64,000 nucleotides of DNA, taken from positions 948,955 to 1,012,954 of the forward strand of contig NZ_PPFD01000003.1 of NCBI RefSeq assembly GCF_009653635.1, read 5' to 3'. Shown in pieces: positions 5,569-17,895 of the stretch. The position numbers and the translations under genes were made by a program. Numbering within the stretch: the first letter of the stretch is position 1; every line of letters starts with the position of its first letter. The stretch is from Endozoicomonas sp. OPT23 (GTDB taxonomy: Bacteria; Pseudomonadota; Gammaproteobacteria; Pseudomonadales; Endozoicomonadaceae). The notes below the pieces were generated by a model. That model saw only the letters and a list, made by a program, of their open reading frames with translations. It was not told the DNA's origin and did not search any database.

Positions 5569-6551
5569 GTAATGAACCGATCCTGAAAGTACGTGACGTC
5601 AAGGTTCACTTTCCTATCCACAAGGCCAAGAAGTGGCCATGGGATAAGGCTCCGATGCTGAAGGCCGTTGATGGCGTCAACATCGACCTGTATGCCGGTG
5701 AAACTTTGGGTGTAGTAGGTGAGTCCGGTTGTGGTAAGTCTACTTTTGCCCGCGCCATTATCGGCCTGGTAAAAGCCACCGAAGGTCAAATCGAGTGGAA
5801 CGGTAAGAACATCGTTGGATTGTCTGAAAAAGACATGAACGAAGTCCGTAAAGACATTCAGATGATCTTCCAGGACCCGCTGGCGTCCCTGAACCCTCGT
5901 ATGACCATCGGCGATATCATTGCCGAGCCACTGCGTAACTATTACCCGGAAACACCCAAGGCAGAAGTTCTGCAGCGTGTCCGTGAAATGATGACGAAGG
6001 TAGGTTTGCTGCCTAACGTAATCAACCGTTACCCGCACGAATTCTCCGGCGGTCAGTGTCAGCGTATCGGTATTGCCCGGGCATTGATTCTGAAACCAAA
6101 GCTGATCATCTGTGATGAGCCGGTAAGTGCTCTGGACGTATCCATTCAGGCTCAGGTGGTTAACCTGCTGAAAGAGATTCAGAAGGAGATGGGCTTGTCC
6201 CTGATCTTTATCGCCCACGACCTGAGTGTTGTAAAACACATCAGTGACCGTGTACTGGTAATGTATCTCGGCAACGAAGTGGAAACGGCCAAGTCCGAAC
6301 CTATGTACGCTGACCCTCGTCATCCGTACACCAAGGCTTTGCTGTCTGCAGTTCCGATTCCTGATCCGAAGCTGGAAAGAGCTAAGGAGATTGAACTGCT
6401 GGAAGGTGACCTGCCTTCTCCTATCAGCCCGCCTTCAGGTTGCGTGTTCAGAACCCGCTGCCCGATTGCTGATGCCAGCTGTGCGAAAGATCGCCCGATC
6501 CTGAGTGATCTGGGACAAGAGCACTATGTAGCTTGTCCTAAAGCACTGTAA
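5565..6551 (+). CDS. oppF: oligopeptide ABC transporter ATP-binding protein OppF
   Basis: A 328-residue ABC ATPase, partner of OppD. Walker A GESGCGKS is at residues 52-59, signature SGGQCQR at 161-167, and Walker B LIICDEP just after residue 180. A C-terminal Cys-bearing peptide-transporter tail is present ([15 protein letters not shown]). Basic residues and tryptophan near the N-terminus (KAKKWPWDK) are typical of OppF rather than OppD. It is the last gene of the operon, closed by an intrinsic terminator at 6571-6605. Confidence 0.95.
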
Positions 6552-6570
6552 TAGCATGCTGCTTTAATAA

Positions 6571-6605
6571 AAAGGCTGCACCCTTAGAGGGGTGCGGCTT
6601 TTTTC
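6571..6605 (+). terminator. intrinsic terminator of the opp operon
   Basis: A nine-pair stem (GCTGCACCC with GGGTGCGGC, one G-T pair), short loop, then TTTTTT at 6599 onward; 20 bp after the oppF stop. Confidence 0.9.
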
Positions 6606-6675
6606 ATATTTGAAATAGCTGAATCACCAAAAGGAATCTACTTTTAAGCCTTTAATTATATAACTCTGAGTTGTT

Positions 6676-8187
6676 ATGAGACTGAGGCTAATAATAATTT
6701 CAGCACTAGCCATGAGTGCCTACTTTATTTCATATCCAGCCTCAGCCAAGCCATGGAAGCTGACGTTAATTGAGGTCGAACACGACGGATACTGTTTCTA
6801 TCACTCAATAGCTAACCTACTTAGAAGTGGAGATACTGCGGAACAGCTTTACCAAAGATTAAGGCGCCACCTGAATAATTTTAACCCATTAATGCCTTCG
6901 AATCTGGAAGATAACTTAGGGCATATTGTTGTTAATTCATCCATTTCAGACCTGAGTCACCACTTATTGCACACTCCATGCAAAGATGATTCATCAAGCT
7001 GGCAGGGAAGTGCGGAAGCAGTCGCTATGGCCGACATGCTGGGGCAATCCATCCTTGTTCTTCAGCTGAATTCCTCATTCCAAATAATCCCTGAAAGTAT
7101 TCTGATTAATTCATCCGGTGCTTTTTCTGTCTACAGCCCGCAGTTTGCATCCCAACCCATGCCTGAGCACCAACTGGTTCTTTTTGAAGGAATGTGGTTT
7201 GCACTTCAAGCAGAGCCTGAAACACCAGAGGATACTTGGACATCTGGAATTCAGAATTATCTTCAGCAACTTCAGCAACTACTTTCAGTTCATACTTCCG
7301 GATTGGGAGAAGAGCTCATTCAACTTCCGGACATACAACTTGAAATAAGTAATAACAGCAGCGTAATCCTCCACCAGCTTCAATTCTTAAGACAATCCTG
7401 CAAAAGGCTGGCAGATATTCAGATGGGTGTTTCAGAGCTAAGTCCAACTGCTGTTGACTGCTGTGTACTGGAACAATTACTTAATCTGGTTAGCCAGATT
7501 ACTGATCAGATTAATATTTTATTGAATCCGATCTGCTCGGCAACGCTAACTTCTGCTCTTGCGAATTACCTCGAGGCTCACTCTATAGAACAGCAAACAT
7601 TGTGTACTCAAATTATAAGTATGCAAAACTCTGCAGAAACAGTTATCAAAATCATTTTGCGCCTGTTACAAAACACAGAGAGTACAAACAGTCAGTGCCG
7701 TGAGATAGTCGCCTCCTCTCAGGATACAAAAACCAATAAACATCCTTCCAGTCAGATAATGATTCACACTGGCGGTATGACTTTCGAATTTGACCAGAAT
7801 AACTCCGTCCATCATATTCTTGGCTCTCTTCACTATGCTTCATTAGTATTCGAGCTTGTTACGAACCTTTTAAACAGCTGTGCCTTATCTCCTCTGGAAG
7901 ACGCTGAATTAAATAAAGCTATTCATTCAATTCAGAGCATTCGAGGCTTCAAAAGGCTGGCAATTAGTACTGAAGGTGCAGTGCCTGATCGATTGCAGCC
8001 ACTGAACCAAATAATCACCGAAGCTAGTGAAAGACTGCACGTGCTTATTCATGCCTTGGGAAGAAGGTACTTTCCAGATCAGTGGCAAAACACTTCATAC
8101 GTTCCAATCACGATTGCGCTGGGCCTTTTCATCATCTTTCACAGCGACAACTTTGTGCCGCGAGGAGGTTGGCGAGACTCTCAGTGA
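6676..8187 (+). CDS. secreted OTU-like cysteine protease domain protein (putative deubiquitinase fold)
   Basis: A 503-residue protein not recognised as a named family member. Residues 1-24 look like a Sec signal peptide ending PASA. The next 150 residues carry OTU-like signatures: HDGYCFYHSIANLL (36-49, cf. the D-G-x-C active-site block, here Asp37 and Cys40), a WQGSAEAVAMADMLGQSILVL block (109-129) matching the OTU W-G-x-x-E-x-x-A segment, and a closing strand LVLFEGMWFAL (167-177). In catalytic OTUs the last strand normally supplies a His; here the site reads M173-W174, so activity is doubtful. The remaining 320 residues are mostly helical without a recognised motif. OTU enzymes cleave ubiquitin chains, which bacteria lack, so action in a eukaryotic host is the natural inference. 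A lone gene between opp and an MFS gene, A/T-richer than its neighbours by eye. Confidence 0.6.
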   Translation: MRLRLIIISALAMSAYFISYPASAKPWKLTLIEVEHDGYCFYHSIANLLRSGDTAEQLYQRLRRHLNNFNPLMPSNLEDNLGHIVVNSSISDLSHHLLHTPCKDDSSSWQGSAEAVAMADMLGQSILVLQLNSSFQIIPESILINSSGAFSVYSPQFASQPMPEHQLVLFEGMWFALQAEPETPEDTWTSGIQNYLQQLQQLLSVHTSGLGEELIQLPDIQLEISNNSSVILHQLQFLRQSCKRLADIQMGVSELSPTAVDCCVLEQLLNLVSQITDQINILLNPICSATLTSALANYLEAHSIEQQTLCTQIISMQNSAETVIKIILRLLQNTESTNSQCREIVASSQDTKTNKHPSSQIMIHTGGMTFEFDQNNSVHHILGSLHYASLVFELVTNLLNSCALSPLEDAELNKAIHSIQSIRGFKRLAISTEGAVPDRLQPLNQIITEASERLHVLIHALGRRYFPDQWQNTSYVPITIALGLFIIFHSDNFVPRGGWRDSQ

Positions 8188-9653: not shown

Positions 9654-11075
9654 ATGGATGGCAGCAAAGATCTTTCTTCATCAGGGGAGTTTCTATTACT
9701 GGACGCTTCTCCAGCAGGTGCAGGCCTGCGAGACGAGATTAAAGGGAAGCTGATAGCAAAATTTAAGGAAATGAGTGTCAAGGCCCGCTCTAATGATGAA
9801 ATGCTTATTCCCAGAGCATCCAGGGAAGTAGCTATCAGCCAGCCGCTTACTAGAACTGTTCAGAGGGTTCTGCATTCATATAAGGACACACAAAAAGTGT
9901 GTGCTGAACCATTTATTATTCTTCCCAACCGGCTGCCAGAAGAGGTTCAATCAATGACCTCTGCTCAAGCAGTTTTCTGTTCTGACCAAGAGTTACTTGC
10001 TGATCTAAATATCGATAAAGCAAGCTACCTTCAGTATTCTGACGCGGTTATTAAAGTCACCCCGACTATCTCTGACATCAAACAAACCAGTAGCCGTTCA
10101 AGCTGTTTCCTTTTAGCCAGCCTGGCCAGTTATGCTGCTTCACCCACTGGTCAAAGAGTCATAGCCAGCTCTATAAACCACGAACGAGATCATTACTTCA
10201 GAGTTACCCTTTTTGACCCCATTCTTGAGCAGGACACGCCTGTGATTGTGTCCTCACACAGGCTGCTCAATAGCAATAATCAGGATATCTTCTCATTCAG
10301 AGACTCTCTTGCTTCCAGTTGGCCTGGCCTTTTTGAAAAGGCATACCTGGCGCTTATGCTCAATCGAAGAGAATGCCTTCAAAGCCTGATACAGGAAGAG
10401 GTCAGTGCACCTGTAATAAGAGAGCTAAATACGCAGCTTGAGCTACTGCCCGGAGCAGGAGGTAAAGGAAACCCTCTGGATTATTCAGATGCCAGAAACA
10501 GTCTTCGTTGCCTGCCAGAGATTCAATTTCTTGCAAAGCCACTTCTTAAAAGGTCTTCAAATTATATTGAAATTCCAGCTGCTCAGCTTGATACGAAAAC
10601 GACCAGAGAACTGATAAAGCAGAATCTGAGGTGTGCAGTACCTGTTGTGCTGGGAAAATCCGGCTCTGCCGGATCAGTATTAAGCAGCCTTACTGGAGGT
10701 ACTTCTGCCAACCATGTTGTTGCGGCCATCGCTTTGGGGGCTGGATTCGATTCAGATAAACGCTGGCAGGAAGGTATATTTACATTCGACCCTTACGGTG
10801 ATGATGATCCAGCTGTGCTCAGAAAAACATTAGCCAATATTTTCGATTCACAGGCCGCTATTCAGAAAAACGAAACAGAAACCTCGTTTATAAAAGGGCA
10901 GGATGAATACGAGATTTTGCTGGTTAGCAGTGATTACTCAAAGAGAAAGTTCGAGCTCCCATCTTCATGCCACTGCATTAATTTCATCCCATTCAGCGTA
11001 CTTAAATCACAATATTCTCAGGCGGTAATAGCTCGAGGAGGAATCAGCACCACTCGACCTGATTTATCTACCTAG
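9654..11075 (+). CDS. calpain-like (papain-fold, C2 family) cysteine protease domain protein
   Basis: A 473-residue protein with no signal peptide. It matches the calpain catalytic pattern in order: SDIKQTSSRSSCFLLASLASY (140-160; candidate nucleophile Cys151, cf. Q-G-x-x-G-D-C-W-x-L-A), WPGLFEKAYLALM (223-235; calpains have W-P-x-L-L-E-K-A-Y), NHVVAAIAL (353-361; candidate His354), and FDPYGDDDP (378-386; in place of N-P-W-G). Asp replaces the usual catalytic Asn. About 130 N-terminal residues are unassigned, with no calcium-binding or C2 region visible. Calpain-type proteases are mainly eukaryotic and sporadic in bacteria, so a host-directed effector is plausible but not shown. The start is GTG- or ATG-ambiguous only in name: the ATG at 9654 is the first in frame. 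Confidence 0.6.
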   Translation: MDGSKDLSSSGEFLLLDASPAGAGLRDEIKGKLIAKFKEMSVKARSNDEMLIPRASREVAISQPLTRTVQRVLHSYKDTQKVCAEPFIILPNRLPEEVQSMTSAQAVFCSDQELLADLNIDKASYLQYSDAVIKVTPTISDIKQTSSRSSCFLLASLASYAASPTGQRVIASSINHERDHYFRVTLFDPILEQDTPVIVSSHRLLNSNNQDIFSFRDSLASSWPGLFEKAYLALMLNRRECLQSLIQEEVSAPVIRELNTQLELLPGAGGKGNPLDYSDARNSLRCLPEIQFLAKPLLKRSSNYIEIPAAQLDTKTTRELIKQNLRCAVPVVLGKSGSAGSVLSSLTGGTSANHVVAAIALGAGFDSDKRWQEGIFTFDPYGDDDPAVLRKTLANIFDSQAAIQKNETETSFIKGQDEYEILLVSSDYSKRKFELPSSCHCINFIPFSVLKSQYSQAVIARGGISTTRPDLST

Positions 11076-11306: not shown

Positions 11307-12185
11307 ATGCTGAAAGACAATACCTATTCCGAAACGCTTTACGATGGTTACGGCCAGAGCTTTTCCGTGGACGAACTGTTGTTTGAGCATCAGACCGAAC
11401 ACCAGCATCTGGTGATTTTCAACAACAAGGCATTTGGCCGCATGATGGCTCTGGACGGCGTAATCCAGACCACCGAACGTGATGAGTTTATCTACCACGA
11501 GATGATGACTCATGTGCCTATTCTGTCCCATGGCAATGCTAAGCGTGTGCTGATCATCGGCGGTGGCGACGGCGGCATCCTTCGTGAAGTGTTGCGTCAC
11601 AAAAGCATTGAGCACGTGACCATGGTTGAGATCGACAACGCCGTGGTAGAAATGTGCAAGAAGTGGCTGCCAAACCACTCGGCAGGCGCTTTCGACGAAC
11701 CAAGAACCAACCTGGTGATTGCTGACGGCGTAGACTTCGTTAACAACCCGGAACTGGCGGCTGATGGCAGCTTCGACGTTATCATTTCCGACTGCACCGA
11801 CCCGATTGGTCCGGGTGAAGTTCTGTTCTCCTCCGACTTCTACGCTGGTTGCAAGCGCCTGCTGACTGAAGGCGGCATCTTTGTTGCTCAAAACGGCGTC
11901 TGCTTCATGCAGCTGGAAGAGGTGGAAACCACCGTTCGCCGCTTGAGCCCTTACATGAGCGACACCAACTTCTACAACGCTGCCGTTCCTACTTACGTTG
12001 GCGGTGTAATGACCTTCGCATGGGGTTCCGACAACCATGAAGCACGCAAGCTGCCTCTGGATGTGATCACCCAACGCTTTGCAGCCAGCGGTATCGAAAC
12101 CCGCTACTACACTCCGGCTATCCATCAGGCCTGCTTTGCTCTTCCGGCCTACGTAGAACAGGCGATAAACAAGGTTAATGGCTAA
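11307..12185 (+). CDS. speE: spermidine synthase (polyamine aminopropyltransferase) SpeE
   Basis: A 292-residue enzyme that transfers the aminopropyl group of decarboxylated S-adenosylmethionine to putrescine, giving spermidine and methylthioadenosine. An N-terminal beta domain carries DGVIQ (50-54) and [10 protein letters not shown] (57-66). The nucleotide site GGGDGG is at 85-90, the acidic VEID at 107-110, and the catalytic loop SDCTDPIGP (161-169) has Asp162 and Asp165. Length is close to E. coli SpeE (288). AAAAGGAAAA precedes the ATG. It is first of four overlapping polyamine genes; its end overlaps speA by 8 bp. Confidence 0.96.
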
Positions 12186-14157
12186 AGATATTAATCAACC
12201 TCTGTTAAAAGAGCCGGACATGCTTCCGGAAGGCCCCGTAGAAAGCGGCTGGAGCGTTGAAGAATCACGCTCCACTTACAATGCCCGCTACTGGAGTCAG
12301 GGGTACTTCGACATCAACGACAATGGGGAAGTGGTTTACCTTCCTCAGGGTCGCCCTGCGGTCAGTCTGAACGATATTGCTGCTCAGCTGGTGCGCAAGG
12401 GTGCCTCTCTGCCGGTACTGGTTCGCTTCCCTGAAATACTTCATCACAGGGTGAACACGCTCTGCGATGCCTTTAATCAGGCCATCCATGAGTACGGCTA
12501 CCAGAATGAGTATCTTGCGGTTTACCCCATCAAGGTGAACCAGCAGCGCACGGTTGTGGAAGAGATTCTGGAAAGCCAGTCTGCCCGTCAGGATCGTCAG
12601 CTGGGTCTGGAAGCAGGCTCAAAGCCTGAGCTTCTGGCCGTGCTGGCAATGGCCAACCGTGCCAGCTCGGTAATCGTTTGCAACGGTTACAAGGATAAGG
12701 AATACATTCGTCTGGCGCTGATCGGTGAAAAGCTGGGGCATCAGGTTTATATCGTTCTGGAAAAAATGACCGAGCTGGAAATGGTCATGAAGGAAGCCAA
12801 AGAGCTGGGCGTTACGCCTCGCCTTGGCCTTCGGGTTCGCCTTGCGTCGCAGGGTAAAGGCAAGTGGCAGGCCAGCGGTGGTGAGAAATCCAAGTTCGGT
12901 CTTTCTGCCAGCCAGGTTCTGACCGTTATCGGCAAACTTAAAGCCGGTGGCAATCTCGACAGCATGCAATTGCTGCATTTCCATCTCGGTTCACAGATGT
13001 CCAACATTCGAGATATTCGTCACGGTATCAGTGAGTGTGCACGGGTTTATGCTGAGCTCTTTCGACTGGGTGCACCGATTCACTGCATCGACGTCGGTGG
13101 AGGTCTGGCTGTGGATTATGAAGGCACTCGCAGTCAGAGCAGTTGCTCCATGAACTACGGTCTGCAGGAATATGCGAACAATATCGTCTATACCATTGGA
13201 GATCTTTGTGCAGAGCAGGAAATTCCGGTTCCACGAATCATCTCCGAATCCGGTCGAAACCTGACGGCTCACCACGCTGTTCTGATCACCGACGTAGTCG
13301 GTGTCGAAAGCTACGAGCCTGAAGAACAGGAAGCACCTGCGGAAGAAGATCCGCAATTGCTCCACAATATGTGGCACTCCTGGCAGGAGCTGGAGAAAGG
13401 CGTTTCCCAGCGTGCTCTGGGGGAGATTTTCCATGATACCCAAAGCGACGTAACAGAGGTTCATACTCAGTTTGGCATGGGAATGCTGGACCTTCAGCAA
13501 CGCGCCTGGGCTGAGAACATAAACCTGCGTATCTGTTATGAGCTGTCAAAACGGCTTTCTCACAAAAACCGTTCACATCGCCCCATCATTGATGAACTCA
13601 GTGAGAAACTGGCTGACAAGTTCTATGTGAACTTTTCTCTGTTTCAGTCTCTACCCGATGCCTGGGGTATTGATCAGGTCTTCCCTGTACTTCCACTGTC
13701 TGGTCTGAATCGTCCACCAGAGAAGCGTGCGGTGATGCTGGATATCACCTGCGATTCCGACGGCACCATTGACCAGTATGTGGACGGGCAGGGCATAGAA
13801 ACTACGTTGCCGGTTCCTGAATGGCACCCGGATAAGCCTTATATGATCGGTATTTTTCTGGTCGGCGCTTATCAGGAAATTCTTGGTGATATGCATAACC
13901 TGTTTGGTGACACAGACACGGTTTCTGTTCGTGTTAGCGACATTGGTCTTATAGAACTGTCTGACTATCAGGCCGGTGATTCGGTCGAAGACGTGCTTCG
14001 CTACGTTAACCTGAAGCCGGAAAGCTTCCTGCACACCTATCAGAAACTGGTGGAAGACTACCTGCCTGAAGAAGAGCGGGAATCGGTTCTCGATGAACTG
14101 GAAGCAGGCCTGAAAGGCTATACCTACCTCGAACATCTTGGAGGAAACGAGCTGTGA
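12178..14157 (+). CDS. speA: biosynthetic arginine decarboxylase SpeA
   Basis: A 659-residue PLP enzyme (E. coli SpeA is 658) converting arginine to agmatine and CO2. YPIKVNQ places the PLP-binding lysine at residue 119. HFHLGSQ and [12 protein letters not shown] follow in the alanine-racemase-like barrel, [11 protein letters not shown] in the C-terminal half, and the SpeA-specific four-helix insertion and beta-sandwich domain come after. It supplies agmatine to SpeB encoded two genes downstream. It overlaps speE by 8 bp and speD by 1 to 4 bp, so translation is probably coupled. Confidence 0.97.
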
Positions 14158-15086
14158 TGTTCTTCGAAGGCTCTGAAAAAAAAGTAGAAGTCGTTACAGC
14201 TTCTGAAGCCGGTTCTCTGAGAGAACTGGGCCGTGAATACTGGGCAAAGGTGGTTGCCAAAGCTCAGGCTGAAATCCTGACCACCATCAGCAACGATGAC
14301 TGCGATGCTTATCTACTGTCTGAGTCCAGTCTGTTTGTCTGGAAAGACCGCTTCCTGATGCTGACTTGTGGCACCACCACACTGATTGATGCATTTTTGC
14401 ATTTTCTCGACAGTATCAACGAAGATCACCTGCTTTTTGCCAGCTATCAGCGCAAGAACGAGTATATGTCTCACCTGCAGGTGACATCGTGGGAGCAGGA
14501 TATCGAACGTCTGAAAGCGCGTATTCCAGGCAAAGCGTTCCGACTGGGCAATATGGACAGCCACCATAACTACATCTTTCATATGGACCGTCCTTACTCA
14601 CCGGATGACTGTGATCAAACCAGTGAACTGCTGATGTATCACATCAAGGGTGAGGGTGCTGAGTATTTGCGCAGTGAAGGCCAGACCATTGAAGGTATTC
14701 GCAAGCTGCTAAGACTGGATGAGATTCTGCCAGGCTTTGCACTGAGTGACTGGCTGTTCGAACCTTTCGGTTATTCCCTGAATGCCATCAAGGGTGATCG
14801 CTACGCCACTTTCCATATCACGCCTCAGGAAGACAGCTCTTACGTCAGCTTTGAAACCAATCTGGATGTTCAGGAAGATACACAGATTCTGGAGAAGCTG
14901 CTGGAAGCCCTGAAGCCGGGCAGCTGGGACCTGATTGGTTTTAACTCGCCAGCGCCTCTGCGTGAAAATGGCGAATTCAGTTGCATGACCGAGTGTCAGC
15001 TGCCACTGAAATGTGGGTATGATATGAGTTTCAATCATTACCAACACAAGGCTCACTGCAAGGTTGAGGCCGAGGAACTGGTATGA
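14154..15086 (+). CDS. speD: S-adenosylmethionine decarboxylase proenzyme, eukaryotic type
   Basis: A 310-residue pyruvoyl enzyme that decarboxylates S-adenosylmethionine to feed SpeE. It matches the eukaryotic SAMDC family, not the shorter E. coli SpeD (264 residues). [11 protein letters not shown] (3-13) aligns with human FFEGTEKLLEV and keeps both glutamates (5, 8). The self-processing site LSESSLF gives Glu57/Ser58, equivalent to human Glu67/Ser68. [12 protein letters not shown] holds Cys72 (human Cys82). [17 protein letters not shown] and SYVSFETNL supply the processing Ser and His region. The annotated start is GTG 14154, but ATG 14157 is one codon inside and equally well placed after GGAGGA (about 14141-14146). 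The stop overlaps speB by 4 bp. Confidence 0.93.
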
Positions 15087-16006
15087 GTACTCTCGGAAAG
15101 CGGGAAGACTATTCCCTTTACTCCAATGCCTTCGGGTTTCTGAGGCAGCCACTGGATTTCGATCCGGTGAATGCTGATTCGGATGTGATTGTCACAGGCA
15201 TTCCCTTTGATATCGCTACCACTGGTCGCAGCGGCAGTCGTTTCGGGCCTGAGGCCATTCGTAAGGCATCGGTGAATCTGGCCTGGGAAGGCAAGCGTTA
15301 CCCATGGTTTTATAACTTCCAGAAGCATCTGTCAGTGGCTGACTGCGGCGATCTGGTGTTTGACTGCGGTGATGCTCAGGATATGTGCGACACCCTGTTC
15401 GCTCACTCTGATCAGATCATTGCTTCCGGCAAACGTATGCTCAGCTTTGGTGGCGATCACTTCGTGACTCTGCCTCTATTGAGAGCACACGCCAAACACT
15501 ATGGTCCGCTGGCTCTGGTGCATTTCGATGCTCACACCGATGACTATGATCAGGGCGGCAAGTTTGACCACGGCACCATGTTCCACCACGCTCAGACTGA
15601 AGGTTTGATCGATGCGTCTGCATCGGTTCAGATCGGTATTCGCACCACTTACGACCATGAAAACACACCGTTTAATGTGCTGGATGCCAGCTATGTGAAC
15701 AGTGCTCCTGTGGATGAAATTCTGCAGAAGATTCGTGAAACAGTGGGTGATCGTCGTATTTATCTGACGTTTGACGTTGATGGTCTTGATCCGGCTTATG
15801 CACCCGGCACAGGAACACCTGTCTGTGGTGGTTTAACGACAGATCGTGCTCTGCACTTGCTGCGTGGTTTGCAGGGATTGGATATTGTCGGTATGGATGT
15901 GGTGGAAGTGGCTCCGGCTTACGACCATGGTGATATTACCGCTCTGGCGGGTGCTACTGTGGCGCTGGAGATGCTTTATCTTCAGGCTGAATTAAAAAAA
16001 CAGTAA
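15083..16006 (+). CDS. speB: agmatinase SpeB
   Basis: A 307-residue ureohydrolase that splits agmatine into putrescine and urea. The binuclear manganese site is complete: GGDH (His126), FDAHTDD (Asp149, His151, Asp153) and FDVDGLDP (Asp231, Asp233). The substrate loop [12 protein letters not shown] follows. E. coli SpeB has 306 residues. Its putrescine is the acceptor for SpeE, which closes the arginine-to-spermidine route inside one operon. It is the last gene and is followed by a hairpin terminator at 16017-16038. Confidence 0.96.
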
Positions 16007-16016
16007 TTTTATTGGG

Positions 16017-16038
16017 AAGCCCAGATTATGGGCTTTTC
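16017..16038 (+). terminator. intrinsic terminator of speEADB
   Basis: AAGCCCA (16017-16023) pairs with TGGGCTT (16029-16035) around GATTA, followed by TTCTC; 11 bp after the speB stop. The T-tract is short. Confidence 0.7.
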
Positions 16039-17259: not shown

Positions 17260-17895
17260 TCAGGCCAACTGCATTCCCTTATCAAGATTGGTCCAGGAGT
17301 TCTGCCTGACAGGAAGCTGGCCCAAAAGGCCGACTACTTCGAGTTTGTCAGAGCAAGATAGCAGAGCAGGGTGAGAGCCGGGCTCTCCTTCAGGAATGGA
17401 CTGACCAATGGTTTTATAGAGCTCAACCCAGTAGGGAAAAAGCTCTCCGGTTTCCAGATCCCTGAACCCCATTGGAGTTTCGGGAAAGACAGGGATATTG
17501 CCGTTGGCATAACGAAAAGCTTCCAGAATTAAGGCACTGCAATACCAGCTTCTGGATTTTGCGGAGTAATCAATATTGTAGGGAAGCTGCAATTGCTGAT
17601 CGGCAAAAGCAACAGCACCTTCTGCCAAAGCTGAGTACCGGGGTTTAACCCTTGCATGAAGGATACACGGGCGATCCAGACCATCAACAACAGAGCGGGA
17701 AATAAAGTAGTCCAGAGTCGTTTTTTGAACTCTGGGCATAATGGCTTCTATCACTTCATTTTCGCCGGAATAGATGGCCACATGATTAATGGCCATTCCG
17801 TTATAGCCTGCAAAGAGTCGGCTGATAATCCATTCCAGCTCACCGCCAGTGCGGAATTGAAACAGTAGATCACCCTTTTGCAGGCCAGTCAGCAT
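17260..17895 (-). CDS. YiiX/YebB-like permuted papain-fold (NlpC/P60 superfamily) protein
   Basis: A 211-residue protein. In permuted papain-fold enzymes the His strand precedes the Cys helix, as here: KGDLLFQF (7-14), INHVAIYSGENEVIEA (36-51; His38, Glu50), LPYNIDY (104-110) and WYCSALILEAF (117-127; Cys119). This is the usual order of the YiiX/DUF830 group, whose members act on amide or lipid-linked bonds. All three candidate catalytic residues are present. No signal peptide is seen, so it is cytosolic or exported by another route. It begins 2 bp after the aroE stop, hence the same transcript. Substrate unknown. Confidence 0.75.
   Translation of the reverse strand: MLTGLQKGDLLFQFRTGGELEWIISRLFAGYNGMAINHVAIYSGENEVIEAIMPRVQKTTLDYFISRSVVDGLDRPCILHARVKPRYSALAEGAVAFADQQLQLPYNIDYSAKSRSWYCSALILEAFRYANGNIPVFPETPMGFRDLETGELFPYWVELYKTIGQSIPEGEPGSHPALLSCSDKLEVVGLLGQLPVRQNSWTNLDKGMQLA

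Follow-up and report, generated by a model that had tools for sequence, protein, structure and literature searches.

A eukaryotic-type S-adenosylmethionine decarboxylase in a spermidine operon of Endozoicomonas, very probably inherited from bacteria

The polyamine genes of Endozoicomonas sp. OPT23 raise the question of how an S-adenosylmethionine decarboxylase (AdoMetDC) of the eukaryotic type came to reside in a bacterial spermidine operon and whether it serves there as SpeD. Here, we analyse the window (the whole stretch of 64,000 nucleotides) together with related loci from other genomes. The reading we prefer, and consider very probable, is that the gene encodes a working class 2 AdoMetDC which acts as SpeD of this operon and was inherited from bacteria, within a gammaproteobacterial group. 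The occurrence of class 2 AdoMetDC in some bacteria has been published before; the accessible text of PMC10407285, citing Li et al. 2019, derives these genes by phylogeny from a eukaryotic source. The bacterial class 2 form is common to that work as cited and to ours, whereas the nearest relatives, the operon context and the Bdellovibrionota-type reservoir were worked out here, so that the new elements are a better resolved bacterial ancestry and the commonness of the enzyme in the phylum of a Bdellovibrionales record (L088). Literature on Bdellovibrio with a class 2 AdoMetDC was not found, and among titles on Endozoicomonas and Shewanella none reported such an enzyme; most subscription journals lay outside the scope of both searches.

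ORF analysis reveals a compact run at positions 11307–16006 with all four genes on the forward strand. It begins with speE (11307..12185), encoding a spermidine synthase of 292 aa (Pfam PF01564 and PF17284; NCBIfam PRK00811 with 395.5 bits and TIGR00417 with 349.9 bits, both above cut-off), which overlaps by 8 bp with speA (12178..14157) for a biosynthetic arginine decarboxylase of 659 aa (TIGR01273 859.4 bits, PRK05354 889.6 bits, above cut-off). The class 2 AdoMetDC gene follows (14157..15086; 309 aa if counted from ATG 14157) and shares 4 bp (ATGA) with speB (15083..16006), which encodes an agmatinase of 307 aa (PF00491 293.9 bits; TIGR01230 295.8 bits and PRK02190 454.6 bits, above the NCBIfam cut-offs). 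The order speE–speA–speD–speB and the short overlaps given in the initial annotation are confirmed, and so is its proposal of a complete route from arginine and S-adenosylmethionine to spermidine in one run, as the neighbours pass the NCBIfam cut-offs and speE, speA, the AdoMetDC gene and speB are contiguous on one strand, i.e. an arginine-route spermidine operon. The four genes are probably co-transcribed. Directly 3′ of speB a hairpin (16014..16038, forward strand) with a stem of 10 pairs (−15.1 kcal/mol, z −3.06 versus 200 shuffles) represents a possible transcript end; it was absent from the output of a consensus terminator scan.

Two start sites come into consideration for the decarboxylase. 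With ATG 14157 the overlap with speA is 1 bp (TGATG), with the alternative GTG 14154 (ORF 14154–15086) it is 4 bp. ATG, GTG or TTG occurs at the position of ATG 14157 in 107 of 120 alignable relatives versus 39 of 120 for the codon before, and therefore ATG 14157 is favoured as the better-supported start. Within Endozoicomonadaceae start codons are found at both candidate sites and the relative L043 has ATG at both, and the choice between them stays tentative.

The only Pfam family matched by the encoded protein is PF01536 (SAM_decarbox; 192 bits with a cut-off of 22.2, residues 3–268). The prokaryotic family PF02675, which comprises the class 1 SpeD proteins (1a in E. coli, 1b in Thermotoga), gave no match in the Pfam search. 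Class 1 SpeD catalyses the same reaction as class 2 AdoMetDC. With the NCBIfam equivalog model TIGR00535 the protein reaches 142.9 bits, which is below the cut-off of 233.15, and it is not filed under this model. By sequence, its best match among solved structures is human AdoMetDC (1e-37). A structure model built from 40 aligned sequences (mean pLDDT 91.4, pTM 0.91) predicts the two-domain single-chain fold of the human enzyme. Its top Foldseek matches are human proenzyme structures (AMD1; PDB 1jl0 and 1msv among them) with whole-chain TM of 0.84–0.87, rmsd of 2.6–2.8 and structural-alignment identity of only 30–31%; over 316 columns of 1jl0 the TM is 0.86, and the T. brucei and potato enzymes rank lower. 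Class 1b SpeD from Thermotoga and Aquifex is matched only in part of the fold (114–121 columns, TM 0.62–0.67 by target length) and weakly at the profile level (probability 26%, with GYS...HITPQ aligned on GIS...HTWPE).

The expected motifs are found in the protein and the catalytic sites appear invariant in an alignment of 125 distinct bacterial sequences, the window protein included. The LSES motif (residues 54–57, codons at 14316..14327) is present in 125/125, the predicted site of self-cleavage lying between Glu56 and Ser57, and identical residues occur in all 125 also at Cys71 (human Cys82; 14367..14369), Ser207 (human Ser229; 14775..14777) and His220 (human His243; 14814..14816), all codons being on the forward strand. 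Ser57 is presumably the pyruvoyl-forming residue, its role being taken from Ser68 of the human enzyme; from the same source we take the roles of the Cys, Ser and His sites and of the putrescine site, whose residues Asp174, Thr176, Glu178, Glu256 and Glu15 (human numbering) are kept. The eukaryotic-type assignment of the initial annotation, opposed to an E. coli-like SpeD, and its human-type motifs including the processing site are borne out by these results, and the choice it had left to Pfam falls on PF01536. The window protein differs from the human enzyme in having Leu for Lys80 and Gln224 (14826..14828) for Glu247, which we take to be a substrate contact (ribose), besides being encoded in a bacterial operon. 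Human, potato and T. brucei AdoMetDC have Glu at this position, and the bacterial sequences have Gln in 103, Glu in 18 and His in 4 of 125; on a tree of 78 rows the Glu/Gln trait changes at least six times. Since Glu247 is absent from 107 of 125 bacterial members, it was not counted as defining class 2. Judged from these residues and the modelled fold, the window decarboxylase is probably catalytically active.

When 84,980 species genomes were scanned, 370 pattern stretches were obtained, and 316 of them encode relatives. The best 80 of these 316 include Endozoicomonas, Shewanella, Ferrimonas, Marinomonas, Grimontia, Photobacterium, Enterovibrio, Celerinatantimonas and Pokkaliibacter, together with records titled as kin of Bdellovibrionota, as Myxococcales or as Deltaproteobacteria. 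Identity to the window protein within these best 80 is 94% for the Hp36 record, 47–62% for Shewanella, 53–58% for Ferrimonas, 55–57% for Marinomonas and 57% for Grimontia; human, potato and T. brucei AdoMetDC show 35%, 26% and 28%, respectively. Of the best 80 loci, 19 have the run speE–speA–speD–speB with unchanged order and strand (5 Endozoicomonadaceae, 12 Shewanella, 1 Enterovibrio, 1 Celerinatantimonas), which means that 14 of the 19 lie outside Endozoicomonadaceae; in the remaining loci the run is incomplete within the sequence examined.

In a sample of 398 genomes from the window's phylum, class 2 was found in 10, the window genome included; it also occurs in 2 of 5 of the phylum of L086's genome and in 67 of 290 of L088's phylum, a few of the latter matches being weak or fragmentary (e.g., G1048, G1082). 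The initial annotation had regarded many other bacteria with the same form as speaking against its view, and they do exist; even so, the class 2 form is uncommon within the window's class, where the window genome is the only carrier among 369 sampled. In L088's phylum PF02675 occurs in 129 of 290 genomes and both families together in only 7 versus 29.8 expected (Fisher p 2.3e-11), and thus the two classes tend to replace each other. Among 33 other class 2 carriers searched (34 chosen, L060 left out) four contain PF02675; in the two of these that were inspected, L133 and L134, the match lies within a membrane-protein-like ORF. Candidate intermediates between the classes were also considered, since 48 genomes of L088's phylum have ORFs of 258–301 aa with weak PF02675 matches. 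A double-SpeD fusion was ruled out: the 14 of these ORFs that were inspected look like the E. coli type, presumably class 1a, and the one scanned, L209, scores 265.8 bits on TIGR03331. The N- and C-terminal halves of the bacterial class 2 profile showed no internal match to each other (0.4%). Phages, plasmids and viral contigs contained no match to the window protein, and none of 49 pattern stretches from a scan of viral contigs with alignment was a relative; these collections thus gave no sign of a mobile carrier.

For phylogenetic reconstruction 77 of 124 distinct locus proteins, the window protein and three eukaryotic rows from solved structures (human, potato, T. brucei) gave a first tree of 81 rows. 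Three long rows (L131, L132, L161) were dropped for a careful tree of 78 rows, and an extra tree includes a yeast sequence as a fourth eukaryotic row. The trees are unrooted and their eukaryotic end branches are long. Class 1b was not used as root because its profile match is weak (26% for the whole bacterial class 2 profile, 5% for the N-half, 36% for the C-half and 10% for the eukaryotic trio) and the sets are of unequal depth. In the careful tree the window gene falls within Endozoicomonadaceae (100/100) and next groups with Shewanella and Vibrionaceae (98/97), a group also containing L086 (Myxococcales title) and L104 (Deltaproteobacteria title). The class 2 genes of Shewanella, Ferrimonas, Marinomonas, Grimontia and Celerinatantimonas (among L051–L123) belong to the same tree group. 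A wider, mostly gammaproteobacterial group has support of only 92/66 and joins the Bdellovibrionales row L093 (98/93) amid further Bdellovibrionota. A second set from the window's phylum (L126–L129) nests with a Bacteriovoracaceae row (100/92), so that at least two separate passages between the phyla took place. The nesting in or beside the eukaryotic clade that had been predicted for the window gene was not observed with the three eukaryotic sequences. Most likely the gammaproteobacterial group took its class 2 gene from Bdellovibrionota-like bacteria, the direction of this transfer between bacterial groups being our inference.

An older exchange with eukaryotes may have occurred in either direction, and in an unrooted tree both directions fit the data. 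According to the first of these readings, a single ancient transfer led from an early eukaryote to bacteria, probably Bdellovibrionota or their kin, and was followed by bacterial spread; we regard its chances as about evenly balanced. A eukaryotic source is stated in the accessible text of PMC10407285 with reference to Li 2019. Also the patchy distribution of class 2 in the Bdellovibrionota-type phylum and its far-reaching exclusion of PF02675 there are as expected of a displacing gene. On the other hand, no bacterial row was found between the eukaryotic rows in trees with either three or four eukaryotic sequences; these rows form one side of a branch supported by 99 in the quick tree, 99/98 in the careful tree and 95/97 with the yeast sequence added. 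The AU test only marginally rejected a union of the wider gammaproteobacterial group with the eukaryotes (p-AU 0.042) when L086 and L104 were included; without these nested rows the p-AU of 7.6e-5 is too harsh, and all groups tested were chosen after inspection of the tree.

The commonness of class 2 in L088's phylum reopens which domain had the enzyme first. A bacterial origin of class 2 AdoMetDC, with passage to eukaryotes before their last common ancestor, is conceivable but rather unlikely. The deep bacterial diversity in the tree is consistent with it, and every eukaryote tested on its own joins rows of the Bdellovibrionota type; for human and potato the neighbour is L158, with L141, L142, L143 and L146 close by, and for T. 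brucei the neighbours are L137, L144 and L145. Moreover, L141, L142, L143, L146, L150 and L158 retain the eukaryotic Glu at human position 247. However, the attachment points differ, their end branches measure 3.4 to 5.0, the rows beside T. brucei carry Gln at this position, and a clade of human with L141, L142, L143 and L146 was rejected (p-AU 0.034; 0.071 with potato added). Equally doubtful is the more specific suggestion of an old bacterial enzyme of Bdellovibrionota that passed at least twice to the window's phylum (into the main gammaproteobacterial group and into L126–L129) and also to the eukaryotic stem before the last eukaryotic common ancestor. If true, an origin in Bdellovibrionota would reverse the published direction from eukaryotes to bacteria. 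Some bacteria carry class 2 quite often, and natural bacterial sequences can therefore be used to test where the eukaryotic enzyme came from.

The role of the enzyme in the operon is best approached through its distribution relative to SpeE. In a profile search the window genome contained one PF01536 gene, the only AdoMetDC found, and no PF02675 gene; in 14 control genomes the same profiles matched in 0/14 and 8/14, respectively. Within Endozoicomonadaceae PF01536 is carried by 17 of 37 genomes (10/10 in the window's genus) and PF02675 by 10 of 37, and four genomes (G380, G393, G394, G395) have both. SpeE occurs in 23 of 37 genomes, which are exactly the 17 class 2 carriers and the six genomes with class 1 only, and was matched in none of the 14 family genomes without either class. 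By coordinates class 1 adjoins speE in 6/6 of the class 1-only genomes, and speE lies within the class 2 run in 14 of 17 carriers, 12 of the 17 having the complete run of four genes, counts that are limited by the contig of only 4154 bases in the carrier G382. Because the presence of SpeE exactly tracks that of AdoMetDC in the family, the window decarboxylase very likely feeds SpeE and spermidine synthesis. The proenzyme would cleave itself before Ser57, which would leave a pyruvoyl group on the large subunit, and this subunit would then decarboxylate S-adenosylmethionine. SpeA and SpeB would convert arginine via agmatine to putrescine, onto which SpeE would transfer the aminopropyl group of the decarboxylation product. 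The class 2 gene would act in this pathway as the operon's SpeD, in place of a class 1 SpeD.

Gln224 in place of the Glu taken as a substrate contact could hint at an AdoMetDC relative with a different job, like those SpeD homologues that turned into arginine or ornithine decarboxylases. Functional shifts are widespread among class 1 SpeD homologues according to the accessible text of PMC10407285, but SpeA and SpeB are already present in the operon, no second AdoMetDC was found in the genome to supply SpeE, and the co-occurrence with SpeE is exact across the family, which makes such a change of function very unlikely. The preferred reading of a working AdoMetDC of bacterial descent has to accommodate Gln at Glu247, the TIGR00535 score below cut-off, the 92/66 support of the wider group, the presence in that group of two records with Myxococcales or Deltaproteobacteria titles, the merely marginal rejection of its union with the eukaryotes (p-AU 0.042) and the four genomes with both classes.

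Under this preferred reading the operon appears as a mosaic. The SpeE proteins of nine Bdellovibrionota-type loci and those of gammaproteobacteria are widely separated, by two stems with 2.2 and 2.4 changes per column, and it therefore seems that speE did not accompany the decarboxylase gene when this passed between phyla; the acquired class 2 gene would have joined an existing gammaproteobacterial speE. Family SpeE rows adjoining class 2 form one clade (100/98), and the six rows adjoining class 1 fall outside of it in up to three places. Two alternative cassettes are found in Endozoicomonadaceae, namely class 1–speE and speE–speA–class 2 with or without speB, and with either class as neighbour of SpeE in one family this represents a clean case of gene displacement.

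Direct uptake of the gene from a eukaryote, for instance an animal host, by this bacterium or by its family, as the eukaryotic origin put forward in the initial annotation might suggest, is very improbable, as the eukaryotic type of the enzyme, its best solved match in human and the life of Endozoicomonadaceae with marine animals (accessible text of PMC13286007) are outweighed by nearest relatives that are bacterial (47–94% identity in the best 80 of 316, against 26–35% to three eukaryotes) and by rejection of a clade of the family with human (p-AU 0.0010) or with all three eukaryotic sequences (p-AU 0.0009). The attractive story of a host gene is corrected by these bacterial relatives and by an operon common to other marine gammaproteobacteria.

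Some further observations concern polyamine genes of related loci. In L042 (G384, about 5583–7477) speA matches in three pieces and different frames beside an open class 2 gene, which suggests that this speA is broken or misassembled. L018 and L020, from the genomes G394 and G395 of the window's genus, have long open frames of 551 aa (L018) and at least 612 aa (L020) that end in a C-terminal class 1b SpeD domain; the part before this domain in L018 has no NCBIfam match. The class 2 operon is also present in both genomes, and speE is located elsewhere. Among Bdellovibrionota-type loci (L133, L134, L221–L225) a SpeD-like domain opens ORFs of 357–373 aa, the rest of which is membrane-protein-like; in L133 this remainder aligns with the N-terminal region of the polyamine aminopropyltransferase model PRK03612.

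Three further genes of the window lie near the operon. Upstream, positions 6676–8187 encode a protein of 503 aa with a leader-like start and a weak match to OTU-like cysteine proteases (PF02338 18.3 bits, below the cut-off of 23.3). The gene next upstream of speE (9654–11075) encodes 473 aa with a weak match to calpain-type cysteine proteases (PF00648 17.7 bits, below the cut-off of 23.8). Downstream of the operon and on the opposite strand (17260–17895) a permuted papain-like amidase of the YaeF/YiiX family is found (PF05708 53.5 bits).
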